Source: Mesostigma viride (lineage: Eukaryota; Streptophyta; Mesostigmatophyceae; Mesostigmatales; Mesostigmataceae). From it: 64,000 bases of DNA. The DNA is taken from positions 3,531,108 to 3,595,107 of the forward strand of contig RPFO01000026.1 in NCBI GenBank assembly GCA_009746045.1, in the 5' to 3' direction. Made by a program: the position numbers and the translations under genes. Shown piece after piece: positions 19,694 through 64,000 of the stretch (position 1 is its first letter; every line of letters begins with the position of its first letter). The notes under the pieces are model-generated. The model was not told the DNA's origin, made no database searches, and saw only the letters and a program-made list of their open reading frames with translations.

Positions 19694-19993
19694 GGATAGA
19701 TGGATGGATGGATGGATGGATGGATGGATGGATGGATGGATGGATGGATGGATGGATGGATGGATGGATGGATGGATGGATGGATGGATGGATGGATGGA
19801 TGGATGGGTGGGTGGGTGGGTGGGTGGGTGGGTGGGTGGGTGGGTGGGTGGGTGGGTGGGTGGGTGGGTGGGTGGGTGGGTGGGTGGGTGGGTGGGTGGG
19901 TGGGTGGGTGGGTGGGTGGGTGGGTGGGTGGGTGGGTGGGTGGGTGGATGGATGGATGGATGGATGGATGGATGGATGGATGGATGGATGGAT
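19694..19993. repeat. sandwich microsatellite (GGAT)n-(GGGT)n-(GGAT)n
   Basis: A GATG tetranucleotide run to about 19806, then about 35 GGGT units to about 19945, then GATG units again to 19993. The three blocks stay in the same 4-base register. Confidence 0.95.
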
Positions 19994-32785: not shown

Positions 32786-32787
32786 TG

Positions 32788-32838
<51 letters not shown>

Positions 32839-33233
32839 CACTCACTCGCTCGCCCGCCGCCCGCCCGCCCGCCCGCCCGCCCGCCCGCCCGCCCCGCCCG
32901 CCCGCCCGCCCGCCGCCCGCCCGCCCCCCCCCCCCCCCCCCCCGCCCACACACACACCCACACCCACCCACCCACACCACCACCCCCACCCACCCACCCA
33001 CCCACCCACCCACCCACCCACCCACCCACCCACCCACCCACCCACCCACCCACCCACCCACCCACCCACCCACCCACCCACCCACCCACCCACCCACCCA
33101 CCCACCCACTCACTCACTCACTCACTCACTCACTCACTCACTCACTCACTCACTCACTCACTCACTCACTCACTCACTCACTCACTCACTCACTCACTTG
33201 CTTACTTGCTTACTTACTTACTTACTTACTTGG
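32786..33233. repeat. compound sandwich microsatellite
   Basis: Ordered blocks: (CTTA)n, a few CTCA/CTCG, (CCCG)n, an 18-base C run (about 32926-32943), (CCCA)n for about 165 bases, (CTCA)n for about 90 bases, then CTTG/CTTA. The outer blocks mirror each other. ORFs reading GGWV are artefacts. Confidence 0.95.
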
Positions 33234-33994: not shown

Positions 33995-34560
33995 GCTCCG
34001 CGCATCGTTGTCTCACTCGGGTGAGACAGATATTAGTTCCCAGCGCGCCGTTGTCTCAGCGTAGCGTGTTCAAGTGAGACAACGGGTAGTTCCCAGCTAG
34101 CCGTTGTGTCAAGGTAGTGAGACAACGGGTAGTTCCCAGCGCTTCGTTGTCTTACTCAAGTGAGACAGATATTAGTTCCCAGCGCGTCGTTGTCTCACTC
34201 TAGTGAGACAGATATTAGTTCCCAGCGCGTCGTTGTCTCACTCTAGTGAGACAACGGGTAGTTTCCAGCGCGTCGTTGTTTCACTCAAGTGAGACAGATA
34301 TTAGTTCCCAGCGCGTCGTTGTCTCACTCTAGTGAGACAGATATTAGTTCCCAGCGCTTCGTTGTCTCACTTGAGTGAGACAACGGGTACTTCCTACAGC
34401 GTCGTTGTCTCACCCTAGTGAGACAGATATTAGTTCCCAGCGCGTCGTTGGCTCACTTGAGTGAGACAACGGGTAGTTTCCAGCGCGTCGTTGTCTCACT
34501 CTAGTGAGACAGATATTAGTTCCCAGCGCTTCGTTGTCTCACTCGGGGTAGTTCCCGGCG
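33995..34560 (-). repeat. hairpin satellite H, array 2 (inverted relative to array 1)
   Basis: About thirteen units of roughly 43 bases with the same palindrome (CTCACTCGAGTGAG and variants) and the same two alternating arms as 27656-27965, in reverse complement. Confidence 0.9.
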
Positions 34561-44315: not shown

Positions 44316-45650
44316 TCTTATGCACACGGCACTCCTGGGTCACTAGGAGCCACTTGTACCACTCTATGACCTTCACCACCACCTTTGCCTTCTGCCCCAA
44401 CCCTCCTCTCACCTGGGTCATCAGTGTAGAGGGTACAAGGAGGGCAACAATTGTTGGATGCACTACGTAGCTGTGACAACAGGTAGTCATATCTGTTGCA
44501 TGCGCGAGTGGTGACGCGCAGTAGTAGCTACTTTGGTTGGCTGCTGCACTGTTACAGGTGGTCACACTTGTTCTTTTCCTTCATTGGGTTGTTTTATTTT
44601 CTTTAGGTGCTGGTAGTCATGCCAGTATCTTGGAGACAGGCAGGTAGTAGCCAGTCTGGCTAGCTGCTGCGCTGTCACGGGTGGTCACACCTGTCCTTCT
44701 TCTTTCTTTTGTTGTTTGGTTATTTCCATATGCTGCTAGTCATGCCAGTATGTTGACACTGTGTCCCTGTGGTTGTAGCCGTTAGCTGCCTGTACCATGC
44801 TAGCTGCCTGTACCTCCTTTGCAGGGGCCAGGATGGCTGCCTATGCTCACCTTATAGGTGCTATAGTGACAATTGCTATCTTTAGTAGCATCGTCCCTTG
44901 TAGTCTTTAGTGACTGCAATATTCTAGCAATATTTGTATCAGCTGTGACAGCAGCTAGTAATAGCTGTGTTGTCTAGGTTGCTCTTATTTGCTACTAGAC
45001 ATCGCAATTAGGGATACCCTCATGGCTATTGCTGTCTCTTTGTTGTGATTAATTAGTTAGAGTGACAGTTGTTGCAACAGTTAGTCATAGCTGGTGCCAT
45101 CATGAGTATTTTGTCTCTTTTGCTTCTTTTGGTTCCTGTGTATATGGCCCTCACGGCCGTCCATGTGAAGTGCATCAACACTTTACCTCTTTTGTTTCCT
45201 TAGTGGTTGTCGCCGGCGTTCCACCGGCTTGTTCCTTTGTGCATCATGTCCACTGATCTTCAAGCGTCGGCCTGTTTGGCAAGGGTACTTTATGTTTCTT
45301 ACCTTTGACGTATCTATGCGACGTGGTTGTTTCAGGATGATGCGCTTGGTTGTTGTAGCTCGGGTACCTTACTTTTCCTTCCAGTCAGGGAGGGTTCTAT
45401 CAGCATATGCTTTGCAACCTTCCTAGTTGCAGATTTCACTTTGCTGAAATGCATGCTGTTGTGGACGTTCATGATGGACATCATTTCCCACGTGTGGATC
45501 CTACAGGGTTCCCAGTACTCCTGTCATGCACACTTGTCTCCTCGTACTTTTTCCTTCCAGTCAGGGAGGGTTACGTCGCCACAATGTGCAACCTTCTTAG
45601 TTGCAGGTTTTAGGCAATGGAGCGCTTAGCTGCATGACGGGCCTGGTGTC
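44316..45650. other. unassigned, with two tandem duplications
   Basis: GGTGGTCACAC...TGTTC with CTGCTAGTCATGCCAGTAT-type sequence is duplicated about 120 bases apart (44540-44760). TTTTCCTTCCAGTCAGGGAG...TAGTTGCAG is duplicated about 170 bases apart (45375-45610). No gene recognised. Confidence 0.4.
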
Positions 45651-45779
45651 GCGTCTGCGTGCCACAACCTCCGGCGCCACCATGCGGCTGGCCACTCAGC
45701 TTTGGTAAAACCCAAATGAGCTGAGCTGACGTGCCTGCCTTAACTGCATGCCCTGTGGGGTGGGCGAGGACCTGTCCCA
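45651..45779 (-). repeat. truncated gypsy LTR end, head-to-tail with the complete LTR
   Basis: About 130 bases matching 47043-47178 (the U3 start of the gypsy LTR on the minus strand), followed by ATGAT/ATTG and then the complete LTR. Even the 4-5 bases beyond the LTR edge (CATGATT) match the internal side of the complete LTR. Confidence 0.75.
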
Positions 45780-45783
45780 TGAT

Positions 45784-47178
45784 TGACGAAAAGAGGGCTC
45801 TCAGCCGAGGACAAGGAATTACTGTCCCTCGTGCCTGATGACCACCTTCTTGATCCCCTTGTGTACCGTCGCGTGCCGCGTTTGAATATCCTTGCTGGGG
45901 CGTTAGCTAGACGCTCCAACTACTCTAATTGCGACAATATGATGGTGCAAGAGGGTGCTTTTGCCTCCCCTGCTATAGAACAATGCTTTCACAACACACA
46001 CTTTGCACAGCCTGATGATGAAGCCGCACATGCGGAATTTATTGAGAAAGTTAATACAATTACAACACGTTGATAGTCTCAATATCGATGCACTCCATGC
46101 TCACGAGCCCGCAGTTAGGCAGCGCTCCATGACATGCTACCGGCCTTGCTCCCAAGGAAAGGGAGAAACACGAAGGCCACTAACGAGAGACTCGAAGAGA
46201 CTACACGCTGCGTGAGAGTCCTCTTCGACTATGAACCAAACCATTCGTCATGCCACACGCATGACACACGCCACACTTGTCAGTCCAGCCAGGAATGCCA
46301 AAACTATCTTGCTGCCTGAACCATGCAAATAGAAACCGCATTCCAGTTGCCGTCCTGGCTTTCTACCACACATGCCAACAAAAGCAGGAAGGCATCCCGA
46401 CAAATCTAAATTGCTACCCTGTTGCCGATCTCATCTCCTAGAGGCTCCGGCATTTCTGTCCCTGGGAATGTCCGGCATTGAGTCACGTCCACCAAGGTCG
46501 AAGCATAATATCCTTCAGACAATCTGCACGCTCACACCTTGCGTGTGAGTGGCCCAGCAAACATTGCGTCTAATCGTTCCTTTCTAGAAGAAATCCCTTT
46601 GTAGGGCTGCCAGCGATTTCGCATTCATTCCAGCGATCTGGCTCCGCACCGCAAATTGTCCTTTTCCATTTTCTGTCCAGTCCTCATAACGTTGACCCGC
46701 TATTCTACACCACAAAGACACCTGGCCTGTCAATAGCCTCGGCGCTGTTGAAGTCCAGCAGTCCAGCTCAGCTCAGCTCCAGCTGTCCACTAACACGCGT
46801 ATGATCCTCTCGACGCTGCGCACTTGTGCTGCCGTCCGCTCAAGTCAGTGCTGCGCGCCCAGCTGTGCCTGGCCCGGCGCGCGCGCACGTACACTTTCGT
46901 CCGCTCTTATGCTGCAAGTGCTAGTGTCCCCCCCGGTCACTAGCCTTTGTCGAAAATGCGTAGAAAACAAATTCCTTGCGCACGTCACCGGTCTTGTGCA
47001 TAGTGGGCGCCCGGATGACATAGCTCGCGTCCGTGACAGCTGTCGCGTCTGCGTGCCACAATCTCCGGCGCCACCATGGCGGCTGGCCACTCAGCTTAAT
47101 TTGGTAAAACCCAAATGAGCTGAGCTGACGTGCCTGCCTTAACTGCATGCCCTGTGGGGTGGGCGAGGACCTGTCCCA
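45784..47178 (-). repeat. gypsy 3' LTR (left, complete, 1395 bp)
   Basis: On the minus strand it runs TGGGACAGG...CGTCA (TG...CA). Its first half on the plus strand is the same as 63491-64000. It is preceded on the element side by a G-rich polypurine tract. It carries a roughly 95-codon plus-strand frame (from about 45783) that is also open in the right LTR, but this has no ATG near its start. Confidence 0.85.
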
Positions 47179-47180
47179 TG

Positions 47181-47199
47181 ATTCCCCCCCTCGCTGGCG
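47181..47199 (-). promoter_or_regulatory. gypsy polypurine tract
   Basis: On the minus strand GCGAGGGGGGGAATCA immediately precedes the LTR start TGGGACAGG. It is the expected primer for plus-strand synthesis. Confidence 0.75.
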
Positions 47200-47209
47200 A
47201 CCGGCCCCA

Positions 47210-48165
47210 TCACGAAGACAGCGATCGTACCAAGACAAGGGCAGCGGTGACCGCAGTCAAGCTGCGGGAGGTAAACTGCGCAGCGGTGCACACTGGACAA
47301 AACCAATCCCCCTCCGGAATGCTGGTGACCACTGGCTGCAAGCACTGCATGTGCCAACCACAGTTACACTGATCACACAATAACATGGACTCCGCCTGAT
47401 CGACCCGGTGACAAACCTGACACTGGGCGTCCTTGACTCGGCGAGACGTGTGCGGTTGGAGGTCGTGGACCAAATTGGGCAGCGAGCAGGGACTGAGATT
47501 GCTGAGGTTGTCAGTCGTACGGCTCCCGTCGGCGCCCTCCAAAATTGCCACTCCCGATGGTTTGATAGCCACAATGCGCAAAATGGTGGGCCCCGCCTCC
47601 ACATCCAAAGTGTGCTTCAGCTGAGTGCGCAGGAAAACATACTGCCCTGGCCTAAACCGCAGCTGGCGAGCCATGTATGCGCCCCCCCGGCGCTGAGCGT
47701 AGCGCAGGGAGTCCCTGTGCTGAGCAATGAACAAGTTGTTCATCGCGATGGGCATGACCTTCTTAAAAGTCTCTGCCCTGGCCAGCACCTCAACCAAAAA
47801 TTGCTGAGCGTTGTCGAAGGCCATGGGTTCGGGGTGCGCAACCTGTGCCTCCGTAGGCAAAAGAGGATTACGCCCGAACAGAAGGAAATACGGGGAGAAG
47901 GTAGCGAGAGACTCCTGGGGAGACATGCGATAACCCATGGCAATCCATGCCAACTCGCGATCCCACCTGGCCGACTCCGGCACCTGCAGGCTCCACTTGC
48001 GCAGCGCCTGCTTGACGGTCTGCACCAATCTCTCAGCCAAACCATTGGCCTGAGGATGCTCCCGAGAAGTGCGACGGTGATCAATAAGACATCCATCCAG
48101 CAACTCCTGGAACTCACCCCTGAACTCACCACCCTGGTCCGTGACTACCTCCGCGGGAGCCCCAA
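47210..48165 (-). pseudogene. gypsy integrase C-terminal half with PHD finger
   Basis: Continues the integrase after a frame break at 48160-48163. It has the second catalytic Asp in VVTDQGGEF and the Glu in HPQANGLAERLVQT, then the usual gypsy tail (SPYFLLFGRNPLLP) and a GPY/F-like region (RPGQYVFLRTQLKHTL, TILRIVAIKPSG). The last 60 residues form a textbook PHD finger: CQVC, then LLCDQC, GWHMQC and WFCPVC, giving C4-H-C3. PHD fingers read histone H3 tails, so it could steer integration or polyprotein complexes to particular chromatin, the role chromodomains have in chromoviruses. Ends at TGA. Confidence 0.85.
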
Positions 48166-48731
48166 ACCTGGTATGATGTCCGCAAAATGCTTCGCTGTGG
48201 TAGCGGCATGCTTGTCAGCAATGGGGATCAACTCAACCCATTTGCTAAAGCTCTCCACGCATACCATGACATAGAGGTTGCCGTCAGGGCTCTCCTGAAA
48301 CGGCCCGCACAGATCGACGTGCCAGCGATAAAACAAGCCCTTGATGGGAAGCGACATCAGCTCCTTGGCACCATGATCTGCGCTAAAGTTAGCCTTGGTT
48401 CGAGCACACGGGACACAGCTGGCCACTACCTGGGCCACCGTGTGTCGCATGTTATTCCACCAATAGCTGGTCCGTACGAGGCTGAGCGTGCGATTGCCAC
48501 CCAAGTGACCATACCGCTCGTGGTACGCCTGCACTATAGCAACGCGCTTGTCAGGCGGTGGGACGACCACCCTACGCTTGCCCAACAGCTTGTACAAAAC
48601 CCCATCTTCCCAACCATAGGTTGCAGCCCTGTGCTGCACCCTGTTCAACTCCGTCGCCTTCTGAGCAGGAGTCCAATCGACTGGAGTAGGAGTCAAGACA
48701 GCACCCTGCACTTGCTCCAAACTCGACCATC
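48145..48731 (-). pseudogene. gypsy integrase zinc module and first half of core
   Basis: HERYGHLGGNRTL with CVPCARTK forms the H2C2 zinc-binding module that precedes gypsy integrase cores. WHVDLCGPF carries the first catalytic Asp, followed by SFSKWVELIPIADK. The frame is entered after an A3 run (48719-48721, plus strand) and ends at a stop just after the C4 run 48160-48163. Confidence 0.85.
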
Positions 48732-49974
48732 TAGCCAGATATCAGCGGTGTAGCAATCAGCAAGAGAGCTACGCGCTAAGAGAGCCTGCACAGCGATCAG
48801 CTGCTGCAGAGAAGGATCAATGTCAAAGGACAGAGACCTACCCTCTTCCATAGCGCACACAGCTTTGGATGGCGTGAATGGAGACGGCCGCACCGGGTCG
48901 TCGCTGATGCCGAAGTCCGCCACAGAGTACTCGACACTGCGCCACCACGCCTCCTCCTCATCGTCGGCCGCATACCCAGCAGCGTTCACAAAGACCACAG
49001 AACCAGACGAGCCCTCGGCACCCATGGCCCGGGCTCCAGTGTGGTCAACAGTGGTAGGCATGGCGTATCGGGATAGCACATCGGCGTTGACATGGTCCTT
49101 GCCGGCCCGATGCACAATGGTCATGTGGTACTCCTGGATAATCATGGCCCATCGGGCGAGCTTACCCGTCAGGTTGGTGTTGGTCATTAGCCACTGAAGC
49201 GGCTGGTGGTCTGTCACCAGAGTAAACACGCGCCCAAATAAATACGGGCGAAAGTGCTTGATGGCCCACACCACAGCCAGTGCCTCCCCCTCATAGGAAG
49301 AATACCGGCTCTCCGCTGGGTTGTTGCTGCGACTAGCATAAGCAATAACGTGCTCGCGCCCATCACCATCCTTTTGCGCCAAGACCGCACCCAGTCCTAC
49401 CTTGGACCAGTCGGTATATAACACAAATGGCAAAGCATAGTCAGGGGCGCGCAGAATCGGTGCCGACGTGAGCTCCTGCTTGATTGTCTCGATGGCGCGT
49501 TGCTGTGCGGGACCCCACGCCCACACGCACCCCTTCTTGAGTAACTCGGTCAAGGGCTTCACCTTGCTGCTGAAGTTCTCAATGTAACCTCGGTAATAGC
49601 CAGCCAAACCCAAATACGCCCGCACCCCTGAGACATCCGTGGGTACGGCGGCCTGCGCAATGGATTCGACCTTGGCGGCATCAGGCGTCCGGCCACCCGG
49701 CACAATCTGATGACCAAGGAATGAGAGGGTCCGCTGGGCGAACTTGCACTTCTCAGGGTGCAGCCGCATATTATGCTCCTCGAGAGCCAAGCGAACCTGC
49801 TCCAAGTGCGCCAGGTGCTCCTCAAATGTCGCGCTAAAGACGATTACATCATCAATGTAACAAGCGGCGAAAGGAAGACCTGCAAGCACTTTGTCCATAG
49901 CTCGTTGGAAAACAGCACTAGCGTTGCGGTGCCCAAAGGGCATGCGCACCCACTCATACAAATTGCCGCCCCCC
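48693..49974 (-). pseudogene. gypsy RT palm/thumb and RNase H
   Basis: Begins after the frame break in the C6 run 49969-49974. LYEWVRMPFGHRNA and CYIDDVIVFS (catalytic YIDD) complete RT, followed by LSFLGHQIV and the connection domain. RNase H follows: Asp in LYTDWSKVGLGAVLAQ, Glu in SYEGEALAVVWAIKHF, Asp in VTDHQPLQWL and HRAGKDHVNADVLSR. All catalytic residues of both enzymes are visible. A linker of about 90 residues precedes the integrase. Confidence 0.9.
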
Positions 49975-51285
49975 AGAATGCAAGCTTCCGCTGATCCTCC
50001 GGCGCAACTGCGATCTGATGAAAGCCGCTACGCAGGTCCAGCGAGGACACAAACTTCACATGAGGAGATATCTTATCCAGGACATCATCCACACGTGGCA
50101 TGGGGTAACGGTCCACGGGTGTGTGTGCATTCAGCAACCGCAGATCGGTGGCCATGCGCATACCCGTCCATGCCCCGGTGATAGCGTCCTTCTTGGGCGC
50201 AACGACAACGGCAGCAGCATAGCTGGAGGAAGATTGCCTGATGATACCGGCATCCTCTAACTCCTTGCATTGCTCGGCTACAAAATCCAACTCGGCCTGA
50301 CTCAGGCGATGCTGGCGTCGGAACAAAGGAGTGTCAGTGTCCAATGGAACACGCATGGTCCCACCATTGAAACACCCCAGTTCATCACTTGTGAAAGCGA
50401 AGGCCCCCCTTGCAGTGCCTAGCCACTTTAGCATGGCTGAGCGCTGCGCATCAGAAAGGTGTTCGCCAATAGCCCAGGGGTGCGTATCCGCGGGATCACC
50501 CACAGCTACCGCATGTGCCTCAAGATGCGGCGCCCTAGCCGCATCGTCGTGGAACAAGGAAAAGGCTGCCACACCTGGTGTGACACCCACCGCCGGAGCC
50601 TCGCGTGCCGCACGGTGTATTACCCGATGCAGCGTGGGCTCGCCGGCCAGCACGGTGCTGGTCAGCAGGGCGGTCATGAGAATGATAGTCCACACCTGTC
50701 GCAGACGCCACCCCCATGCTGATGAAGTCCCCGTCGCTGCAGGGCGCTTCAGTTTGGCTGCGCGCGCCTCAACCTGCTGAGGCGGATTGGCTGGGGACGC
50801 CCCCCCAGACTGGCGCACGGCAACCGATGCAAGCAGCACATACCCGACCTGCAACACCGACATAGCCTGGCCTATCAAAGACCAGCGCTCACTCTCGAGC
50901 ACGCCCGGCAGCGCCGAGGCCCCGACATGAAAACCCATGCTGGCCTCACGAAATTCTGCGGGTGGCTGCACCAACAGACCGGTGGTAGTGTCCCAAACGA
51001 GACCCTTACCCCGATCACGGTATGCTGTCGACCCTTGGTAACTGACCAGGGTCGGCAGTGCACACATGGGGCTCCCGACCCGGTTGACGCGTGCATACGG
51101 TGGGCGATCCTCGCTATCCACCTTCTGCGTGACTAGGTGGGAAGGCAATGCTACCTCCGCAGACACACTCGGATGCTGCCTTGCTACGGCCCCAAGACCG
51201 CCTGCACACCGGTCGCACACGCCACGTTGGTCCAATAGGCACGCAAACGATGCGTGAGCCCACCCAGCCCTGCGTTGTCACACAC
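49969..51285 (-). pseudogene. gypsy methyltransferase C-terminus, TM segment and RT fingers
   Basis: The frame overlaps the upstream ORF by about 100 bases. Its first 140 residues supply the end of the C5 methyltransferase: a target-recognition-like stretch, then FREASMGFHVG (motif IX-like) and SLIGQAMSVLQVGYVLLASV (motif X-like). A hydrophobic helix, WTIILMTALLTSTVLA (about residues 181-198), follows. RT starts near residue 290: YPMPRVDDVLD, then motif A FVSSLDLRSGFHQIAV. The frame breaks at the C6 run 49969-49974. Confidence 0.85.
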
Positions 51286-51792
51286 GATGGGCTCCCCCAG
51301 GAGTGCCACGATTGTAGCCCAGTCCTCCCGCACCGCCTGATGTGGGCTGTCACCCGCCACAACGTTCTCAAACAGATACGCAGGCGGATGGGGCTGACGC
51401 GACTGCAACAGTCCCACCACACGCAACAGTTCCCAGAACAGCGCGCTACGCGGATCGGCTAGCCCCCGCCCTTGCCCTGCCTGGCTCAGGCCCTGGCACT
51501 CCCAACCCGCAATTACCAAGTCGATGGCATGATGCCTGCGCAACAACTGCTGCACCTGCACCTCACCGATGGCTCGGATATCTTGAGGACATTCCCCAAA
51601 CGGGTCACGCCATGCTGATGGCGGAAACTGCGCGGGATACTCTCGCGACAACACGCCACAGTGACTGAAGTACACCTGACGCGCCTTGTGCGATGGCTCT
51701 ACCGCGATGAGTTTACGGCACACGCCGCCTGCGGCCAAAAAGCCTGCAATGCCCCCTCCGATCCCCGCAAACAGTTCCAACACTACCGCACC
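50810..51792 (-). pseudogene. C5 cytosine-DNA methyltransferase domain within the gypsy polyprotein
   Basis: Transfers a methyl group from S-adenosylmethionine to cytosine C5. Motif I is LELFAGIGGGIAGF at about residue 768 of the first frame. Motif II-like LIAVEP follows. Motif IV, VIAGWECQGLSQAG, has the catalytic Cys but WEC in place of PPC. Motif VI is YLFENVV; motif VIII is THRLRAYWTN. Motifs IX and X lie in the second frame after a one-base break at 51190-51193. Total about 320 residues, normal for a compact C5 methyltransferase. It sits between protease and RT, a place where gypsy elements normally have nothing. Confidence 0.88.
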
Positions 51793-54110
51793 CTTGGCAA
51801 AATCAGGGGCCTGCGGTAAGATTGCAGCAGAAAAATTACCTTGGGCCTCCGAGACACCCGGTTGCACCAAAGTGAGGCCATGGCTGGCCATCTGAGGAAT
51901 GGTGACGACGGCTTCAGTCACCCGCTTGCGCATAGCCAGCTGCCGCGTGGACGTCACAGCATCCAGCGACCACTGCGTGCGCATCTTGGCAATGCTCGCC
52001 GTTGGCTGAGGCAGCACCGTCCGATGCTTGTCCCACGCCGATGAGCCCGCCGCCCGTACCTCCACCATGCTGACCTCCACCACGCCCGCAGCCGCTGAAG
52101 GGTTGAGGCGTGCAGCCCCGGCTGAAGAACTGAAGCATGAGACCGGCACACTGGCCCGCTTCAGGCCAGCCCCATCCCAATCAGGGATGTAAGATGCCTC
52201 CTCCGCCCTATAGTCCACCTGAACCATGGCGCGAGCAAGGACATCCACCCCGAGTAGTGCGGAATATCCACACTTGTTGACCACCAGCGCATACGCGGAC
52301 ACGGTGGTCATGCTAGAGGCGCGCAACGGATTGAAAATCACGTTGACTTTAACCGCCGTCATAGCGTACGGCTTACTAGCCGGACCCTGCCAACCTGACA
52401 CAGACACGGGGCTTTCCACTAAGCCACCGTTCTCGTAGGTCAGGTTCAGCATGGTGGCCAAGTCTGTGCTGATGACTAGCGGCTGAGCACCGCTATCAAG
52501 CTTGACTGCGCCAACCAACGGACATGTCACCATGTCGCTCCATACATCTCCACAGGCTCCAACTGCTTGGAACGCTATGGACGGCTCACCATTGGGGTAT
52601 GGAACCACCGTGGGAACCTGGGGAACTGCACTAGTGCGCTGCTGGCTACTTGTGCTGACCACTCCCGCTTGCACCACGGGCACTGCGGCTTCTACCGGCT
52701 GACGCCCGTAGGTGACGGACTCAGAATTGCGCAAGGTGCGCACATCATGCCCATCTGCGAACAACTGGATCTCGGACACAACCGACCCCAGCCACTCAAC
52801 CCCCTTCTGCCCGAAGGTGTCGACCACCTGCCGTGCTGAAAACATGGGTACGTCCACAATGAACGGCATTGGGTACACAGGCGCCAATCGCCTACGCTGC
52901 TCCAGCCCAGCAGGGTTCGCATGCTCAAAAGCAGATTGCACCCCAGCCAGCGGCATGGAAAAGGACGCGGGCAACTGCCCGGCAGGCAACATGGGTGCCT
53001 GCTGAAAAGAAAGCGGGCTGCGTGCCTGCTTGCCTTTGGTAGCCTCCGCAGCGTTGATCTCGACGTCACCCGGCATGGGCGCCCAGAATGGGTCCTCCCG
53101 GTACACCGTCGCGAATTGGTTGGGGGGCGCCGTCGCCTCCTCACCATGCTTGATGGCAGCCACCTGGGCTTCCATCGAGTCGGTCTTGCCCGCCATCTCG
53201 GCGAAGTGGACCGTCTTGATGCCCGCGGCTGGACACTTGTTCATCAGGTGCCACTTCGTGTCTGCCCCATGCGGCTTCGTGCAGCGGCTTGGACACTCGC
53301 GACTAAGGTGCCCATCCTTGTCGCAAAGGTAACATTTACCGCGTGACGGGGTGGGTGCGCCCAGCGCGCCTTGCACGCCCTGCGCCTCCTGAGTCCCATC
53401 CGATGTCGGCGGACGACCGCCTCCGCCTCGACCACCACCGCGACCCCGACCACCGTAGCCACTGCCGCCGCCACCACGACTGACACCGCCGCTGCCACCC
53501 TGACCGCCACCGCCGCTGCCCCCGTGACCGGCGTTGCCACCACCCTGAGTGCCGACATATTCACCGCGCCCCGCACCAGGCAGCCGCTGGCCACCCTTGA
53601 CCGCGATGGCCTTCTCCATCTCAGCCATCTTCTTGCGCATCTCAGCCAGCTCAGACGAGATACCCTTCTCGCCTTCCGCACGCTTCCTGAGCAGCCGCTT
53701 GAATGCTGCACAGAGAGTCACCAAAGTCCACTCCCCACCGGGCGGCTCCGGAAGATCGATGGCCAGCAGGGGCACTGCACTCCGCCATAACCGGCAAGCC
53801 TTGGTCTGCGTATAATCAGGCACTTTGCCCGCAAACGCGAGGAGCCGGTCAAGGGAGAAAGCCGGATCCTCACCCTCGGCGACGGTGAACGCTCCATTCC
53901 ATTCCGCGATGGCCTTGACGTGCTCAACTGGGTACTCCAGCCGCAGTTGCTGCCACAGCTGCTCTGCCGGGTCGACATCGAAGATGATCGAGTCGAGATC
54001 CGGTGTGCCCATGTCCGTGAGCGCAAACCAGATGTCCGTGCGATGACACCGGTCCACGAGCGCTCGGTAATGCTGGACCAAAACCTGGACCTTCTTCTTG
54101 GTCAGGTCAT
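51184..54110 (-). pseudogene. gypsy gag C-terminus, zinc knuckle, protease and start of methyltransferase
   Basis: A 965-codon open frame. Residues 1-130 are a helical gag region; 170-225 are Gly/Arg-rich (RGG-like, RNA-binding). A CCHC knuckle, CYLCDKDGHLSREC, lies at residues 250-263 (53293-53334). The aspartic protease starts around KLDSGAQPLVIS (Asp codon at 52495-52497), with a canonical DSG. LLGVDVL follows about 100 residues later as the closing motif. The methyltransferase begins at about residue 766. The first Met in this frame is not a real start: the frame is entered after the A6 run at 54113-54118. Confidence 0.85.
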
Positions 54111-54505
54111 GGAAAAAAGGTGAATAAAATCCATCACCATCTCATGGCGAAGAGGATACCCCGAGGCATAACGATAAGTGTTACAATGAGCTCGGAAGAG
54201 CTCATAGGCTTCCTCTAAAGTCGCACCCGTGCCTGCTGAGGTGAACTTCTCGCGAAGCTCCACCTTGGGCAGCGATGGCACACGAGTGGATTCGCCATGC
54301 ACGCCGTACGGCATGCGGTGGGGTCGCTGGACGTCGTCGCCCTCACCCCATGGTATGCTGGCTAGCTCCCGATCGACTTGGCCCCAGCCGAAGTCTGACC
54401 GAGTGCCGCCAAGCCTGGGCCGCCCTGCGGTGCCACCCAACGGCGTTGCTGCCGCCGTCATGGGTGGCCGACCTGTGCTAAACAAGCCACCTGATGCTCC
54501 CCCCC
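54102..54505 (-). pseudogene. gypsy gag middle segment
   Basis: About 127 codons containing LEEAYELFRAHCNTYRYASGYP and then HEMVMDFIHLF, a helical capsid-like stretch. It is joined upstream at the C7 run (54499-54505) and downstream at the A6 run (54113-54118), both one-base breaks. Confidence 0.7.
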
Positions 54506-55146: not shown

Positions 55147-55800
55147 AGTTAGCATATTGGGGCACCAATGTGCTAGATGGATGCAGGTTGAGGAGACCTT
55201 TCCAACGCCGTGTCAACCGCCTAGAACAGACAAGGGACTAGAAAGTTATCAAGTCCCGAAGTACTGCCGACCGGTGGGCGAGGGCGGGGCACACTCAGGG
55301 CATAGTGGACAGGACACGTGGCAGGCCGTGCCTGCACAGGCTTAGCCTGTACTCTCACGTGACTGGGACACAGTGTACTGAGGGCTCAACGGTACTGTGG
55401 CTAGTAGAAGCCAGTAAACAGCCAGCAGGTCTGCAAGGATGTAAGTCCTTGCAGGACTGTGGCAGGTCCTGTGCTGTCCTAGACACAGGATAGCCAGAGA
55501 TTCCTGTATGCTGCCTGCAACGAGGATGCAGGGCAGCGATACGAGGCTCTGGCAATGTAGCGTTGCCCAGCGTTGCTCATGACCGAGGAACAAGGATGGA
55601 ACGAGGTTGCATATAGCTCGGGGCTCAACGAGGCAACGAGCGTCTTCACACACGAACCTTGGTCGTCACGACGAGTGGCGAGCCTATCGAGGGTCGTAGG
55701 CCTGGTGTGAGGATAAAGGTTGCTAGCCAGCAGCCTAGGGTCATTCCAGCCGGCAAGGACCAGGAGCTCACAAGCTCTGCTGACGAGTTGCTGCGCAAAT
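55147..55800 (+). repeat. copia-II 5' LTR
   Basis: Direct repeat of 62472-63125 at a constant offset of 7,325 bases, with no mismatch noticed. A CTTGCAGGACT / GTCTGCAAGGATGTAAG hairpin-prone region lies in the middle (about 55430-55460). Confidence 0.92.
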
Positions 55801-55823
55801 CGTACTATTGCTTCCACGCTTTC

Positions 55824-56960
55824 ATGTCTGGTTCATCGTCAAGCAGCCACGGTGCTGGTGAGGCGAACGAGCAGAGAGACGCGCAAGCGTTTTTCCCCTA
55901 CCGCAACCAAGTAAACGCTCCAACATTCGTGCAAGCGGCCTACGTAGCGAGGCACTTGGCAGAAGAGGGGTGGGTGGCGGTGAGTGGGGGAGGCAACAGG
56001 CCAGCGGCGGCGGACCCGATTATTCAACGGGCTCGCGTCGTGATTTCTCCAGGTGAGACGGGGCGAGTGGCGGTGGAAGAGTTGGTGCGCCTACGAGACG
56101 CGCTAGCTGAAACTGCTAATCGTGTGGAGGTCGCTTATCAGGGCGCCCATATAACACTTGCCGGTCTCGACCTAGCCAGGGAGGCGCTTAGCCAGATTGT
56201 GGCAACAGCGCTCGGCAGCACCCGGCTGTTTAACCACTGGGTGGCGACAGCGGTGCTAGGAGAGGGGGTACCAGACGCCGACATCATCCGGAACGCGCGT
56301 GCTCGGGAGACGGTAAATCCTTGGAGCACGGCAGAGGTGTTTGCCCAAACCATTGAGAATCTTGTTGCTGTCCTTTTGCAAGAGTCGAGAGGGTACGCAG
56401 ACAGGTTTTATATTACCACGCAGCCTTTCGGGGTATACTCAAGGCTTGATACACCGAGGCCGGAAACCACCACTGCGTGGGGTCCGGAGGTGGAGATTGT
56501 CGCAGGGGTCGAGAAGACGCCTGAAGACGTCCACTTTGAGTGGACTGACAAGCCAGAGGGCTCCGTAAAGCGCTCAGCCCAGCAGATAAACGAGGGCGAC
56601 GGCACTACCGAGACCTACGAGGCAAGGCAGAGAGCTGATCTGCATATACCTCGTGAGGCGACTCACGAGTACGACCGTTACGGCCGAGGCGAGCAGAACG
56701 AGCTGGTCGGCGGCGGTAAGCGGTGGTTGCGCAATCTTGCTTGGCATCGCAACCCAGGCGAGACACAACATCCAGTCGAACGCAAGGAAGACGGGCGACC
56801 TGTGACCTGCGTGCTGGGAGAGTTTAACCCAGACCTCCAGATTGTCGCAGAGGCAGCAGCAGCCACATCGGTTGCTGAGGGTGTTGAGCAGCGTCCAGAC
56901 CGTGAGGAGGGGCAGGCGAGTGCAAGCCAGGAGGCGGCCTCGTCTGGAGTAAGTGCGTGA
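55824..56960 (+). CDS. copia-II ORF1, unknown protein of about 378 residues
   Basis: The first ATG lies 24 bases after the 5' LTR (MSGSSSSSHGAGEANEQRD). The frame is open further upstream into the LTR, but only with non-ATG codons. The protein is acidic and Ala/Glu-rich with predicted helices (VEELVRLRDALAETANRVEV, LDLAREALSQIVATALGS) and no motif I recognise. It ends TGA-GCC-TGA, and the same frame then stays open into gag. It could be a capsid-type or accessory protein; the base composition is more GC-rich than that of gag and pol. Confidence 0.6.
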   Translation: MSGSSSSSHGAGEANEQRDAQAFFPYRNQVNAPTFVQAAYVARHLAEEGWVAVSGGGNRPAAADPIIQRARVVISPGETGRVAVEELVRLRDALAETANRVEVAYQGAHITLAGLDLAREALSQIVATALGSTRLFNHWVATAVLGEGVPDADIIRNARARETVNPWSTAEVFAQTIENLVAVLLQESRGYADRFYITTQPFGVYSRLDTPRPETTTAWGPEVEIVAGVEKTPEDVHFEWTDKPEGSVKRSAQQINEGDGTTETYEARQRADLHIPREATHEYDRYGRGEQNELVGGGKRWLRNLAWHRNPGETQHPVERKEDGRPVTCVLGEFNPDLQIVAEAAAATSVAEGVEQRPDREEGQASASQEAASSGVSA

Positions 56961-57014
56961 GCCTGAGTGGGTTCCAGCGGCCATATCTGCGTGTGTTTTC
57001 TGTGGTATTCTATA

Positions 57015-58364
57015 ATGCTTCGTAACACGCGCGGGGGCGGCAGCGGGAGCGGGGCGGGAGCGGGGGATGGCGGGGGTGAGGCAAGGGCAGACACGGGAAG
57101 CCCCGCCAACGTCGTGCCAGAGGGACAGGCAATCCCAACGGCAGAGGGCGTCAATGGCAGGAGGGCGTCCAACCGGAAGAGGAAAGAGGTGGCACAAGGG
57201 GAGGAGCGTGCAGGGTGGCCAACCGACGGCGTGGTGCTGACGGGGGAGGGCCAGAATGATGCTGAACGGCAAGCACCTGGTAAGAGACCATGTGTGCCTC
57301 CGTCTGGTGTTCCTGCAGCTCATGTTCCTGCGCCATTAGCACCAGTAGGAGCTGCTGTCATTGGCAGTGACCCTCGTGCTTTGCCTGGAACTAGACCTCA
57401 TATGAGTGCTGTGGCTGTGATGAATGGCCAGAAGCCTCTCAAGCCTCCTGTGGGACAGGAAGAGCTAGACAAGTGGTTGGAGGATATGGAGCTAGTTTCA
57501 TGCTCTGTAGATCCCACTGTCAACCTTGTGCAGGTATTCCACACATCCACGACTAATAGGGATTCAAGTGAGAGGGTGAGGGACAAGGCTAGGCAGGCTG
57601 TCAAGGACAAGCTGACTTGGTCTCAGTTCCTAGAGGGCCTACGTCAGGAGTTTTCTGATAAGGTACTCAACCTCACTAATCACTATAAGCTCAGCTATGA
57701 TACCTTTGAGATCAAGGGCACAATAGCTGAGGAGCTGCAGCGGCTCACACGCATCAGGGAGAAGGGGGCCAAGCATGGCTTCAATCTGACTGATAGAGCA
57801 GTGGCAGATTACTTCCTGGATCGCATGGGGCTGAGTGTGGATGGGAGAAATGCAGCTAGGATGTTTGCTGATCAGACAGATGGGACGTGGCCAGCCTTGC
57901 AAAAGGTTATTTTCAATATCCGTCCATCTGACAATGCTGCTTGTAAGGCAATCCAGGTAACTGGTGCCCCTTCAGCCTCCGCTCATCAGGTCCATGGTGA
58001 CGCCCCTGGGCAGGGTGCTCAGGGAGAAACCAGACCTAGTAGGCGTCAGAGGGCTAACAGGCGCAGGCAGAATGGTAACCAGGGTGGCAAGGGCCAGCAG
58101 CAGGGATCCAAAGGCAAGGGTCAGCAGCAGGCTGGTGGTCACCAGGGTGGTCAGCAGAACAAGGGTGGCCAAGGGCAAGGCAAGAGCCAGGGCCAAGGCA
58201 CCCAGGCCAGTCAGAGCAGCCAGAACCAGGGTGGCCTGAAGAAGGCTGCTGCTGGGAAGGATGATAAGTGCTTTGGATGTGGCAGGACGGGTCATTGGCG
58301 ACGTGACTGCCCAGACCAGGCCAAGTCTGCTGGAGCAGGTTCTGGCCAGGTGGGTAAGCCATGA
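57015..58364 (+). CDS. copia-II Gag with CCHC zinc knuckle
   Basis: ATG at 57015 (MLRNTRGGGSGSG). After a Gly/Pro-rich N-terminus, residues about 140-320 form a copia-like gag capsid region (KWLEDMELVSCSVDPTVNLV, then LTWSQFLEGLRQEFSDKV). A Gln/Gly/Lys-rich linker follows, then the knuckle CFGCGRTGHWRRDC near the C-terminus. It packages element RNA into virus-like particles. It ends TGA at 58362-58364; pol resumes in the same frame after two codons, suggesting readthrough. Confidence 0.85.
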   Translation: MLRNTRGGGSGSGAGAGDGGGEARADTGSPANVVPEGQAIPTAEGVNGRRASNRKRKEVAQGEERAGWPTDGVVLTGEGQNDAERQAPGKRPCVPPSGVPAAHVPAPLAPVGAAVIGSDPRALPGTRPHMSAVAVMNGQKPLKPPVGQEELDKWLEDMELVSCSVDPTVNLVQVFHTSTTNRDSSERVRDKARQAVKDKLTWSQFLEGLRQEFSDKVLNLTNHYKLSYDTFEIKGTIAEELQRLTRIREKGAKHGFNLTDRAVADYFLDRMGLSVDGRNAARMFADQTDGTWPALQKVIFNIRPSDNAACKAIQVTGAPSASAHQVHGDAPGQGAQGETRPSRRQRANRRRQNGNQGGKGQQQGSKGKGQQQAGGHQGGQQNKGGQGQGKSQGQGTQASQSSQNQGGLKKAAAGKDDKCFGCGRTGHWRRDCPDQAKSAGAGSGQVGKP

Positions 58365-58370
58365 CTTGAG

Positions 58371-61300
58371 ATGTTGTCCCCTGTAAATAGTCAATCACCC
58401 CTAGTGGGACGAACAGTTGTACATAGTAATGGGGGTGTCCCTCTTGTACAGCAGCAAGGGGTTGGGAATGATGAGGTGCTTCCACTCAATGATTGCAATA
58501 ACGCTGCTGCAGCAGTGGAATTCCCTGTGCCTGTGGCAGGTGCAGGGTCTCCAGTTGTTGGGGTTGACTCTGGGAGTCAAGCCGCCAGACTGGAAGGACC
58601 TGCAGCTTCTGTGGGAACCGGGGCTGGCTCTGGGAGCCGAGCTACCTTGGAGGAGGTCCCTGGAACAAGAGAACAGCAGGTGGGTCGTGCTATCCCAAGC
58701 ACACAGTCTTTGTCACGTTCCTCTCTGTGCAGCCAGGCTGACAGGGGGTTGAGCTATGCTCAGGCTGGAAACACACTACACCATATCTTTGGTCACTCTA
58801 AGCAGGCAGAGATGTTTGCTTGGAAGATTGGCAAGGAGCCTTTGCTAGAGGCCTGCAGTGCAGCTGCTCAGAATTGTGTCTGTCAGGAGAATGCTGTTCG
58901 CCTTCACAGGGTAACCTATTACTATGACGGTGTGGCAGTCTCTCCCCTGGCATTGCAGTTTGGTATGCTATCACAGGACGTGGTGGCAGCCTGCCTGAAG
59001 AAGGCAGACAGGGTGTTTTCCAGATTGAGGCGTAAGGACAAGGGTTGGAAAATGCTGAGGCCCCAGGTGGGACTGAGGGTCAGGATGTGGAAGGAACCGT
59101 CATTACCAGGCAAGCGTGGCAAGTGGCAAGATGGGCAGGTAACCCATGTTGAGGAAGCTAACCATTCTTGTCTGGTGGCTTTGGAGAGTAATCCCAAGCA
59201 CGTGTACAGGCTATCCTGGGCTCACGTCAAGGAGAGAAGGCCAACTGCAATCTGGCCTGAAGACGGCCCTGATCCTCCCTTGGAGGGAGATGAGCAGGAT
59301 GAGAGCCAGGCAGCAGATGCTAACCCACCATGCTTGGATTATGGTCTGTCCTGGATGGATGAGGGTGAGCAGGAGTCTGCTGAGACGTCTGTCACAAGGC
59401 CAGAGGTGGCCAGGGCTGCACCACAGTCCAGGGGGCTGCTTATGGCGGACATCATTCGAGCTCTGCAGAACAGCAAGCGTGATCCCAAGGTATCTAAGCT
59501 CACGGGATGGGGGTCATGTGGGGCACCAGCACTAGAAGTGGATACCAACTCACAGGTGTCCATTCTAAGGGTAGAGGATGCTGCAGGCTTGCAGTGGTCA
59601 TCCCCTAGCTGCCTAGCTGTGTCTGATTTCTCTGGGAATGTGTCCATGAAGATCTTGGGAGAAGTGAGTGTGCCTATCCTGGGGGTGCCCACCACGTTCA
59701 GTGTGGTTGAAGGGTATCAGGGGCCTGCCATTCTAGGACAGAACTTCTTGTGCTTACCAGGGGTGAGGATATCCTCTGAGGAGCTAGCATTAGAAGGGCA
59801 GGGCCGCCTTCCCTTGCAGAGATATCGCTACTCCCAGGGTCTTAGTGTGGCTGTAAGGGCTGTGAGGGGTCTAGAGGCAGAGGGTCCTGATACAAAGGAG
59901 CCCATTGCTGGGGACCTGCTGATCCTCCCTACTACGTTTGACCCACGTGAGTTGGGTGTGCAGAGGTACCAGATCCCAGGAACGAGTCCTGTACCTTGGC
60001 GCAAGCTAGTGGAGATGATGCAAAGCCCCAAGATGGCTAAGGCATGGACTCTTGGCTTTGTTGCTTCTGGGCATGAGTGGATAGTTGCCAACTGTGCAGA
60101 GCCTGTGGATGTCCTCCCTGAGGATCACCAGCTGCTCAGATTGATGTTTGTCCTCAAGCTCAAGGAGGTAGATGGCGTGCAGGTGCCACATGTCAGACCA
60201 GTTGTGACTGAGTACCATGGCACTGGACAGTTAGCAGATGAGGAGCTTTACACACCAGGGATGCTGCATGATACATGGAGGATTTTGTTGTGCATTTACT
60301 TGTCTTTTCTGCAGAAGGGGATACCCTATAGCTCTGTGTTGGTAGATTTCAAGAGGGCTTTTCTTAAGGGTGATCAGCAGGAAGCACAGGATACTTGGCG
60401 CACAATACCCCCTTTCTTTGTTAAGGTGCCTGCAGTGTGGAGGGCAGAGCTGAAGACGAGGTATTTGAGGATTCTCAAAGGCGTAGAAGGCCTTAGATCG
60501 AGTCCCATCATCTGGAGGAAGAGCTTGGAGAAGTACCTCAGGTCTGTCTGTGGTCTCTCAGTCTCTCCAGTTGATCCTTGTCTGTTTCAGGGTAGCTATG
60601 AGGGGCTGCCAGCGTTTGCCTCCCTGCATGGTGATGATCTGCATCTCCTGGGCCATCCCACTTGGCAAGAGTTGACTCTGGCCAGGATCCAGAAACGGTT
60701 TGAACTGGGTAAGATCCAGTACATGGTTGAGAATGAGCCCATGGTGTTTTGTGGAATGCAGGCGACCTTGGTCCAACAGCAGGGTACATGGTCCATCCAG
60801 CTGGAGGGTGGTAAGGATTATCCTCAGCAGATCATAGATGCCTTGCAGGAGCCCATCACCCAGGCCAGATGTGCAACAATACGAGGTATGTTGGCATGGC
60901 TGGCCAGCATTTGTGCTCCTGACCTGTTGGTCCTGAGTCGGTTGACCGATTCCCAACTGGTTGAGGTGGGTGCTGAGAGAGTGGTAGAGGCTGTTCGCAT
61001 GTCTCCCCCTCTCATGCTGGGTCCTTTGGATTTGTACAGGCCTTTTGACATGATGCTCTATGTGGACAGTTCTATGGATAGTAGGAAGGTCACAGAGGTC
61101 AGGGGCCGTGCAGCAGCATTAATATCCCTGGTGCAGGAACAGTCCTCTCTGGTCTGCTGGTACAGTCGGTTGCAAAACAGGGTAACTCCCAGCAGTGACA
61201 TTGCTGAGTGCAGGGCAATCTGTGAAGGGCTTCATACTGCTCTTTACTTGAGGGAGCTATTTTACCAGCTATGTCAAGTGGCTTCCTGTCGGTTGCAGAT

Positions 61301-61538
61301 GCACACACTGGTAAGAACTGACAGCATGGGCATGGTGCAGTTTGTGCACAGGCAGCTGGCCAGGAGCAGGGACCTTGATTATTTGTTGCTCAAGGAAATG
61401 TCTTGCTTAGCTAACATTGAACATGTGGCTGGCGTGGACAACCCTGCAGATGCTCTCACCAAGCTGGAGGAGAAGGCTGAGCTGCAATACCCTTTGCTTC
61501 GTGGGCTCATGGCCTCCAAGGGGGGAGGGCCAGAGTAG
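58371..61538 (+). CDS. copia-II Pol: protease-like, RT and RNase H, integrase core missing
   Basis: ATG start and TAG stop; 1055 codons uninterrupted. After a low-complexity start, HHIFGHSKQ with CVCQE (residues about 138-173) matches the integrase HHCC module. Copia-I has about 130 residues of catalytic core next, but here the text jumps to the integrase C-terminal domain (LRPQVGLRVRMWKE to AHVKERRP). EVDTNSQVSIL starts the protease-like domain (Gly replaced by Asn), closing with AILGQNFL. RT has LVDFKRAFLKGD and SLHGDDLHLLG. RNase H has VDSSMDSR, SSDIAECRAI, RTDSMGMVQF and VDNPADALTKL. Confidence 0.88.
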   Translation: MLSPVNSQSPLVGRTVVHSNGGVPLVQQQGVGNDEVLPLNDCNNAAAAVEFPVPVAGAGSPVVGVDSGSQAARLEGPAASVGTGAGSGSRATLEEVPGTREQQVGRAIPSTQSLSRSSLCSQADRGLSYAQAGNTLHHIFGHSKQAEMFAWKIGKEPLLEACSAAAQNCVCQENAVRLHRVTYYYDGVAVSPLALQFGMLSQDVVAACLKKADRVFSRLRRKDKGWKMLRPQVGLRVRMWKEPSLPGKRGKWQDGQVTHVEEANHSCLVALESNPKHVYRLSWAHVKERRPTAIWPEDGPDPPLEGDEQDESQAADANPPCLDYGLSWMDEGEQESAETSVTRPEVARAAPQSRGLLMADIIRALQNSKRDPKVSKLTGWGSCGAPALEVDTNSQVSILRVEDAAGLQWSSPSCLAVSDFSGNVSMKILGEVSVPILGVPTTFSVVEGYQGPAILGQNFLCLPGVRISSEELALEGQGRLPLQRYRYSQGLSVAVRAVRGLEAEGPDTKEPIAGDLLILPTTFDPRELGVQRYQIPGTSPVPWRKLVEMMQSPKMAKAWTLGFVASGHEWIVANCAEPVDVLPEDHQLLRLMFVLKLKEVDGVQVPHVRPVVTEYHGTGQLADEELYTPGMLHDTWRILLCIYLSFLQKGIPYSSVLVDFKRAFLKGDQQEAQDTWRTIPPFFVKVPAVWRAELKTRYLRILKGVEGLRSSPIIWRKSLEKYLRSVCGLSVSPVDPCLFQGSYEGLPAFASLHGDDLHLLGHPTWQELTLARIQKRFELGKIQYMVENEPMVFCGMQATLVQQQGTWSIQLEGGKDYPQQIIDALQEPITQARCATIRGMLAWLASICAPDLLVLSRLTDSQLVEVGAERVVEAVRMSPPLMLGPLDLYRPFDMMLYVDSSMDSRKVTEVRGRAAALISLVQEQSSLVCWYSRLQNRVTPSSDIAECRAICEGLHTALYLRELFYQLCQVASCRLQMHTLVRTDSMGMVQFVHRQLARSRDLDYLLLKEMSCLANIEHVAGVDNPADALTKLEEKAELQYPLLRGLMASKGGGPE

Positions 61539-62471
61539 ACCAAACAGCCTTGCTCTAGGTGGGAGGCATCCCAGTGGGCTGGGCAGCCACGTGGTGGCTG
61601 ACAGCAGGTCCTTCAGAGTTCAGACACACTCTGCTGGACAGGGGTCAGGGTGGAGTCACTCCCCTGGCTGAGAATTTCGCCTGGCTCTGTCATGGAGCTG
61701 CAGAAGAGTCTTAAGGACTTTGTAATGGGCCTTGGGTCTTCATGGAATGGACCCTGCAAGGGCAGCCCAAGTGTTGGCTCTAACAGGTTGCTGTACATTT
61801 GTATATATTCTCTGTAACCAACCTGTTGCATGCTAATAAAATCCCTGGTTGTGTGACCATGTTGGACGTGGTTGCCAGGGGCCTCACTATGGGTTATACT
61901 CCTTTATAATAAAACATAATCTTGTTATTGTCATGTTTTGTTGTTTGTGATGCTCAGTTCCAGGAGCTGATCCAAACCTGGAGGATGGGGTGGGGTTCGA
62001 TTCCCCAGCTGACCTCAGCCTGGCATGTATGAATCCTGAGTGAGACTCAGTGAGGACATGGGCTCCCCATGTGTTGGCTAACATTTGTCAGGGCTCTCTC
62101 AGTCTTTGGAAGGATTTAAAAGATAAAGGAGGCTCCGTGGCGGGCGCCATATGAACGGGCGCCTGTGATAACTGGATGACCAGGAACTCACAATAGTACG
62201 TTCATGGACTCCTCTATCCAAACTCCTCTGACTAAGTGAAGACCTAACTTTAATCTACACCAGGTTCCCAAAGAAAGGGTTGGGATGTCATGTGGGTCAG
62301 AGGGCAACCTTTGAACCAATGAGCAGGCCTAGCTAATATTTGGAGGCACCTCAGGTTCCAAAAGAAAAGGCAGGTCTGGTCTCTGGGAGGGATCAGATGT
62401 CTAAAGGCTTGTGGGGACAGTGGCTGATAGGTTCTCAGGCTGGTCCAAGCTCCAAAACAAGAAAGGGTTGG
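61539..62471 (+). other. copia-II 3' untranslated region
   Basis: About 930 bases between the pol stop and the 3' LTR with no ORF of note. An AAAGAAAGGGTTGG motif occurs at about 62270 and again as AACAAGAAAGGGTTGG right before the 3' LTR, where the latter is the likely polypurine tract. AATAAA-like signals occur at 61836 and 61910. GCGGGCGCC...GGGCGCC around 62136-62163 can form a hairpin. Confidence 0.5.
61943..62015 (+). other. tRNA-like sequence inside copia-II
   Basis: A perfect T-arm (TGGGG-TTCGATT-CCCCA, 61991-62007) and a D-arm-like hairpin (GCTC-AGTTCCAG-GAGC, 61952-61967) at tRNA spacing. The acceptor strands do not pair and U33 is absent, so it is not a functional tRNA. It may be a SINE head carried in the element. 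Confidence 0.35.
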
Positions 62472-63125
62472 AGTTAGCATATTGGGGCACCAATGTGCTA
62501 GATGGATGCAGGTTGAGGAGACCTTTCCAACGCCGTGTCAACCGCCTAGAACAGACAAGGGACTAGAAAGTTATCAAGTCCCGAAGTACTGCCGACCGGT
62601 GGGCGAGGGCGGGGCACACTCAGGGCATAGTGGACAGGACACGTGGCAGGCCGTGCCTGCACAGGCTTAGCCTGTACTCTCACGTGACTGGGACACAGTG
62701 TACTGAGGGCTCAACGGTACTGTGGCTAGTAGAAGCCAGTAAACAGCCAGCAGGTCTGCAAGGATGTAAGTCCTTGCAGGACTGTGGCAGGTCCTGTGCT
62801 GTCCTAGACACAGGATAGCCAGAGATTCCTGTATGCTGCCTGCAACGAGGATGCAGGGCAGCGATACGAGGCTCTGGCAATGTAGCGTTGCCCAGCGTTG
62901 CTCATGACCGAGGAACAAGGATGGAACGAGGTTGCATATAGCTCGGGGCTCAACGAGGCAACGAGCGTCTTCACACACGAACCTTGGTCGTCACGACGAG
63001 TGGCGAGCCTATCGAGGGTCGTAGGCCTGGTGTGAGGATAAAGGTTGCTAGCCAGCAGCCTAGGGTCATTCCAGCCGGCAAGGACCAGGAGCTCACAAGC
63101 TCTGCTGACGAGTTGCTGCGCAAAT
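62472..63125 (+). repeat. copia-II 3' LTR
   Basis: Matches 55147-55800 base for base as far as I compared. It is followed by the GAGAC target duplication. Confidence 0.92.
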
Positions 63126-63332: not shown

Positions 63333-63490
63333 AAACTGCCACAACCACTACCAAGTAGCAACGGTCTAATCTGAAAGACTTAATGGTTGATCAGGCCACT
63401 ATGTGTGCTAGTCTTCCCCAGAAAACTGCACACCGTCTCTCTTTGCTGAAATGAAAATGTTCCTTTGCAGATGGAGTTAGTCTCTTCGAG

Positions 63491-64000
63491 TGACGAAAAG
63501 AGGGCTCTCAGCCGAGGACAAGGAACTGTCCCTCGTGCCTGATGACCACCTTCTTGATCCCCTTGTGTACCGTCGCGTGCCGCGTTTGAATATCCTTGCT
63601 GGGGCGTTAGCTAGACGCTCCAACTACTCTAATTGCGACAATATGATGGTGCAAGAGGGTGCTTTTGCCTCCCCTGCTATAGAACAATGCTTTCACAACA
63701 CACACTTTGCACAGCCTGATGATGAAGCCGCACATGCGGAATTTATTGAGAAAGTTAATACAATTACAACACGTTGATAGTCTCAATATCGATGCACTCC
63801 ATGCTCACGAGCCCGCAGTTAGGCAGCGCTCCATGACATGCTACCGGCCTTGCTCCCAAGGAAAGGGAGAAACACGAAGGCCACTAACGAGAGACTCGAA
63901 GAGACTACACGCTGCGTGAGAGTCCTCTTCGACTATGAACCAAACCATTCGTCATGCCACACGCATGACACACGCCATACTTGTCAGTGCAGCCAGGAAT
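63491..64000 (-). repeat. gypsy 5' LTR (right, truncated by window end)
   Basis: TGACGAAAAGAGG onward matches 45784-46296. Differences seen: a 3-base indel (AAGGAATTACTG versus AAGGAACTG) and two substitutions near the end. The rest of the LTR lies beyond the window. Confidence 0.9.

Follow-up and report, generated by a model that had tools for sequence, protein, structure and literature searches.

A damaged Ty3/gypsy element of Mesostigma viride with a DNMT3-type methyltransferase and an integrase PHD finger, from what looks like an old streptophyte lineage

Cytosine methylation is one of the main weapons of the host against retrotransposons. It has been known since 2018 that some retrotransposons carry C5-cytosine methyltransferases of their own. 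In the charophyte Klebsormidium nitens, KnitGypsy-Dnmt3 has a DNMT3 within the Pol polyprotein of a Gypsy element, and in Symbiodinium such enzymes are embedded in SymbioDIRS-Dnmt3, with DNMT3 in Pol in two domain orders, and in SymbioLINE-Dnmt, thus in DIRS (tyrosine recombinase) and LINE elements and not in gypsy (PMC5890265; this and all other papers are cited for the parts consulted). The KnitGypsy and Symbiodinium captures were called independent acquisitions (PMC5890265). DNMT3s in long terminal repeat (LTR) and DIRS elements are also mentioned briefly elsewhere, the LTR ones being termed Copia (PMC12344493). For the Mesostigma viride genome 5-methylcytosine is reported, mostly in CG, and the consulted part of that account has no methyltransferase-bearing element (PMC6947507); the consulted parts of PMC6338049, PMC6453930 and PMC9998398 hold nothing further on this lineage. 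Here we describe such an element on the minus strand of a 64,000-nucleotide stretch of M. viride (contig RPFO01000026.1, hereafter the window), at ~45.8-64 kb. We read it as a damaged copy of an old Ty3/gypsy lineage encoding gag, protease, a DNMT3-type methyltransferase, reverse transcriptase (RT), RNase H, integrase and a PHD finger, with self-methylation and PHD-guided targeting as its proposed functions, and we give this reading a probability of about 0.5. What is new here is the PHD-bearing integrase, the plain LTRs and the wider streptophyte range. In the literature searched (supplements and most subscription papers lay outside it) we found neither a gypsy element that combines a DNMT with a PHD nor the wide streptophyte range or the second domain position described below.

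The methyltransferase domain lies between the protease and the RT (50819..51798, minus strand) and occupies two frames. Within the 985-residue frame 51184-54141, residues 787-927 match Pfam DNA_methylase (E 2.1e-11, 44.3 bits, cut-off 22). A profile of 358 positions, built from seven relatives, matches with positions 8-205 in that frame and with positions 223-347 in frame 49844-51277; the domain is therefore full length across one break near 51.19 kb. A first-pass annotation of the window had proposed a C5 methyltransferase at this place in a Ty3/gypsy element, and the matches over both frames bear it out; the absence of a significant C5-methyltransferase match, which it had named as grounds for giving the idea up, is contradicted by the Pfam result. 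It had also stated that this kind of element was reported by de Mendoza et al. in 2018, as is the case for KnitGypsy-Dnmt3 and the Symbiodinium elements (PMC5890265). By sequence comparison the identity and family assignment are firm. Among C5 methyltransferases the domain is nearest to DNMT3, with canonical motif order: the best match of the family profile is DNMT3A/3B (9.7e-27), motifs I to X are unrearranged, and the predicted structure of one relative is closest to DNMT3B/3A. It differs from the DNMT3A/DNMT3B catalytic domain in its low identity (20-25% in the structure matches), and no PWWP or ADD domain was matched by Pfam in the window frames scanned. When P0001, a second Mesostigma protein, was searched alone, the result was weaker and less specific (DRM-type 4onj 0.0013, HaeIII 0.005, no DNMT3A row).

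The surrounding element has direct LTRs, and its gypsy-type domains are ordered RT, RNase H, integrase, both as expected of Ty3/gypsy. The 3' LTR (45784..47178, minus strand, 1395 bp) is preceded by a purine-rich tract, and the 5' LTR (63491..64000, minus strand) is truncated by the window end; 63488-64000 and 45781-46296 are 98.8% identical (516 columns, 3 mismatches, 1 gap). Along the minus strand the coding part runs as gag with a CCHC zinc knuckle (53287..53340; Pfam zf-CCHC, 22.5 bits, cut-off 20.8), aspartic protease (52200..52520, approximate limits), methyltransferase, RT core in two frames (49704..50197; RVT_1, and tblastn to P0031 and P0028), RNase H (49128..49442; Pfam RT_RNaseH, 1.8e-39), integrase in two frames with H2C2 zinc finger, catalytic core and C-terminal part (47423..48651; H2C2 5.5e-18, rve 1.9e-4, tblastn to P0031, local match to the contig L051 introduced below) and PHD finger. 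No Pfam match covers the protease, which is placed by its DSGAQP motif and by tblastn alignment to P0031, where Pfam recognises it. The rve match and the RT half in frame 49844-51277 stay under the Pfam cut-off because frame breaks split both. In the PDB the best match of the L051 RT and RNase H is Ty3 (1.7e-73), and the window RT is akin to that of L051. Frames of the element upstream of 54141 have no Pfam match.

The PHD finger closes the integrase (47288..47422, minus strand). It is matched by Pfam at 1.2e-9 (38.4 bits, cut-off 24), shows the zinc-binding pattern and has 102 PDB matches with E no higher than 0.001, the closest being BAZ2B (6.5e-16), Lid/KDM5, BAZ2A, CHD4, ATXR5 and WSTF. 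Several of these PHD fingers recognise unmodified H3K4; that the window PHD may do likewise is, by this analogy, a lead only. A PHD follows the integrase in eight of nine entries, the window included, in which the integrase match reaches the query end. The first-pass annotation had described a PHD finger and a transmembrane helix as additions of this copy. The PHD is thus real but not peculiar to it. The helix amounts to a hydrophobic stretch of borderline strength (19-residue mean Kyte-Doolittle 1.56 at best), lower in all four relatives compared (0.13 to 1.14), and we reject it as a family feature.

In relation to described systems, the element shares with KnitGypsy-Dnmt3 a DNMT3 in Gypsy Pol and a charophyte host, but the repeats of KnitGypsy-Dnmt3 are DIRS-like (PMC5890265) whereas those found here are plain, direct and in the same orientation; since DIRS-like repeats are lacking, we regard the element, compared by description only, as alike in kind and do not assign it to that family. 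The consulted part of the description has no mention of a PHD in KnitGypsy-Dnmt3 (PMC5890265). Ginger1 DNA transposons also have a gypsy-like integrase with extra C-terminal domains, PHD in one case, but they are without RT and a methyltransferase is not mentioned for them in the consulted text (PMC2836005). Tf1/Sushi and Tcn1 chromoviruses are self-priming (PMC6317226), which matches a putative site of our element (see below); they differ in that the Mesostigma integrase ends in a PHD finger, with no chromodomain matched by Pfam up to E 0.001 among the nine window proteins scanned.

Relatives were collected by a search from the domain of P0002 and by a profile search, with the 8000 candidates sharing most words scored in each. 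The former gave 40 proteins (nine from Marchantia polymorpha, three from Closterium, one each from Sphagnum fallax and Mesostigma, and 26 organism-less), and the latter gave 76 more, including two additional Closterium proteins and P0087, whose identifier prefix we take to be that of Spirogloea muscicola; the weakest rows of the profile search are DRM-type and bacterial enzymes. Labels of Marchantia, Closterium and Sphagnum are found on gypsy-type polyproteins that contain a related domain, and unlabelled metagenomes contribute many more. Among the matches of both searches, host DNMT3 genes were not recognised as such and no protein is labelled Klebsormidium nitens. That a host methyltransferase was inserted once or recently into this Mesostigma copy, for which the broken frame could speak, can be practically dismissed: P0001 has the domain with one residue different and is open past the break, and many relatives have it in polyproteins bearing retroelement domains. 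This also contradicts the one-off insertion that the first-pass annotation had named as a way for its proposal to fail.

The Mesostigma domain order with PHD is also found in P0031 (2358 residues, one frame) and in L051, while P0028 has the order and no PHD match. In P0033 and P0035, and by local matches in P0034, the order is RT, RNase H, methyltransferase, integrase, PHD, which is a second domain position. Wherever an element host is named, it is a streptophyte (we checked the taxonomy of Mesostigma, Closterium and Spirogloea); the exceptions by title are P0044 and L051, assigned to bacterial metagenome-assembled genomes, which we take for stray contigs. L051 (1-9285) is a family element titled as a Synechococcales metagenome-assembled genome contig; the two ends share an overlap of 127 bases, which a collapsed repeat or a circle would show, and it is probably a stray eukaryotic repeat contig binned with bacteria. 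A recent bacterial or viral origin was considered and rejected: the 50 loci of the viral_contigs scan (best E 1e-12, 32% identity) and the seven of the genome_contigs scan are distant enzymes, save L051 (46% identity, E 4e-87).

The history of the domain was followed in a methyltransferase tree of 46 rows, from 72 assembled (4 short, 4 non-family and 18 metagenome rows removed, the last thinned by eye), with human DNMT3A and two bacterial-type enzymes as outgroup. The Marchantia rows, the Closterium rows, the Mesostigma rows and the layout RT, RNase H, methyltransferase, integrase can each be cut off by a single branch. The deep forks stay open, and the support that separates the family from the three outgroup rows is 94/93, beneath the star of the tool. 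In an RT tree of 14 rows, where Ty3 is the sole gypsy element without the methyltransferase domain, that layout is again a single clade and deep forks are again open; in the matching 12-row methyltransferase tree one of nine inner branches is starred. Over the 11 elements shared, distances in RT agree with those in the methyltransferase (Mantel r 0.64, with 2 of 5000 permutations as high). Nine close pairs were picked by hand, some with members in common; identity is higher in the methyltransferase than in gag in all nine and higher than in the protease stretch in seven. Trees and distances fit one capture followed by relocation within the polyprotein, and would also be compatible with several captures or whole-element transfer. 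Several independent DNMT3 captures by gypsy elements are possible, if doubtful: the two domain positions, the open deep forks with an outgroup of three rows only and the distance of the Mesostigma domain from the rest (path about 2.1) point that way, but the single clade of the second layout in both trees and the agreeing distances argue for one. The domains and their order, the family-wide catalytic residues and the agreement of distances are shown at the sequence level. As relatives of this layout occur in other algae and in liverworts, the element probably belongs to an old line of elements equipped in this way and is not a one-off.

In the mechanism that we propose, the methyltransferase would enter the virus-like particle together with RT; in the branch of L051 it would be carried by the plentiful gag-side product that ends at a leaky stop. 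It would then methylate newly made cDNA or the fresh insertion, the integrase PHD would steer insertion by reading the histone H3 tail, and writer and reader would jointly put the new copy into tolerated, pre-marked chromatin. The recurrent pairing of methyltransferase and integrase PHD suggests that integration targeting is linked to methylation. A fuller scenario, which we offer tentatively and hold to be rather unlikely as a whole, is that one early capture gave streptophyte Ty3/gypsy a coupled DNMT3 writer and PHD reader, and that the lineage, retained from Mesostigma through to liverworts and mosses, marks the cDNA it makes or its target and selects chromatin by histone tail. If true, this would be a retrotransposon that determines from the moment of its birth which epigenetic state it has. 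Why a methyltransferase should be kept can be tested directly on elements in which it is under evident constraint, and in Marchantia, as a genetic model plant, the members of the lineage would make the question accessible to experiment.

Several observations weigh against our reading. Protease-to-PHD coding is spread over five overlapping open reading frames (ORFs), that is, four frame breaks, therefore this copy is not translatable as a single protein; the breaks may reflect either a decayed copy or assembly indel errors. The CpG observed/expected ratio of the gypsy body is 0.86, higher than in the body of a copia-like element nested in it (0.40) and in window positions 1-45500 (0.70), so there is no trace of long CG methylation. 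P0028 is the one of the nine entries without a PHD match, and the putative readthrough described below is seen in the DNA of one element, L051. As to the enzyme itself, the first-pass annotation was right about the catalytic Cys, the Glu of ENV and HRxR, which the Mesostigma copy retains and which are conserved nearly throughout the family (in P0038 from Sphagnum and P0040 from Closterium the motif IV stretch is absent from the listed protein), and two of its motifs need correction: the Cys is preceded by Glu in place of Pro, a variant shared by 16 of 63 rows, and in motif IX an Ala replaces the Arg that 58 of 63 rows carry. KnitGypsy-Dnmt3 gave no methylation in yeast, which its authors judged inconclusive, whereas DIRS-type enzymes methylated CG there (PMC5890265). 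These substitutions, the yeast result and the long Mesostigma branch could mean that the domain is catalytically weak or dead in the Mesostigma branch and retained as a structural or DNA-binding part. We think this unlikely, as the Cys, Glu and HRxR are in place and the Glu variant recurs in several tree branches.

The unusual Glu before the Cys could also fit an enzyme methylating RNA, such as the genomic RNA or a primer, as was suggested for LINE-type enzymes (PMC5890265). This is improbable, given that profile and fold are nearest to DNMT3, while the RNA enzyme DNMT2 scores far lower against the family profile (2.7e-8 and weaker). More plausible, and still quite unlikely, is that the host genome or competing elements are the target and not the cDNA of the element, so that the host silencing state is altered; the same domain evidence would serve, and host-methylome effects are discussed for Symbiodinium (PMC5890265). 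But fusion to gag-protease or RT-integrase indicates the particle, and K. nitens, which carries such elements, has a plant-like methylome (PMC5890265). Which sequences a DNMT3-type enzyme of this family prefers may differ among members: in the target-recognition part (~51080-51100, minus strand) the Asn aligned with DNMT3A N838 is conserved in 63 of 64 rows, while the Arg two residues before it, R836 in what we take to be DNMT3A numbering, is found in only 4 of 63, Mesostigma included.

Expression and priming can also be considered from the DNA. In L051 the frame of gag, protease and methyltransferase stops at UAG-CAA-UCA and RT, RNase H, integrase and PHD continue in the same frame; UAG-CARYYA is the type I readthrough motif (PMC5382211), which suggests readthrough at this junction, and if so the methyltransferase would be produced at gag level in the branch of L051. 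The proteins of 15 unlabelled relatives (P0002-P0016) end 104-163 residues past motif X, several with nearly the last residues of L051. P0031 and P0028 continue without a stop, and window frame 49844-51277 is stop-free between methyltransferase and RT. Directly after the 5' LTR there is a putative self-priming primer binding site of 13 nt (63478..63490, minus strand), every base of which is complementary to the LTR at 46203 and to the copy at 63907 in the 5' LTR; none of 20000 random window 13-mers complements the LTR likewise. Self-priming, which is known for Tf1/Sushi, Tcn1 and the copia TAR lineage (PMC6317226), predicts an RNA start near 46203. An AATAAA lies at 46043, 160 bases past the predicted start, and the LTR yielded no TATA match. 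In L051, whose LTR limits are undefined, no comparable self-priming site was recognised.

Adjoining the gypsy 3' LTR, the 138 bp at 45647-45784 are 96% identical to the start of the same LTR (47041-47183) and form a second, truncated LTR start in tandem. The nested copia-like element (55147..63125, plus strand) splits the gypsy element, has identical 654-bp LTRs (55147-55800 and 62472-63125) with GAGAC flanks on both sides, and is younger than its gypsy host. Its gag ORF (56967-58364) stops at TGA and a second ORF (58365-61538) continues in the same frame, with a weak Pfam RVT_2 match alone (0.0017) and no integrase match. Elsewhere in the window, arrays of a 43-bp unit with an inverted motif lie at 27661-27962 and 33997-34546, in opposite orientation and 6 kb apart, and long microsatellite blocks are found at 19322-19993, 29405-30254 and 32783-33232, including ~850 bp of TCCC.
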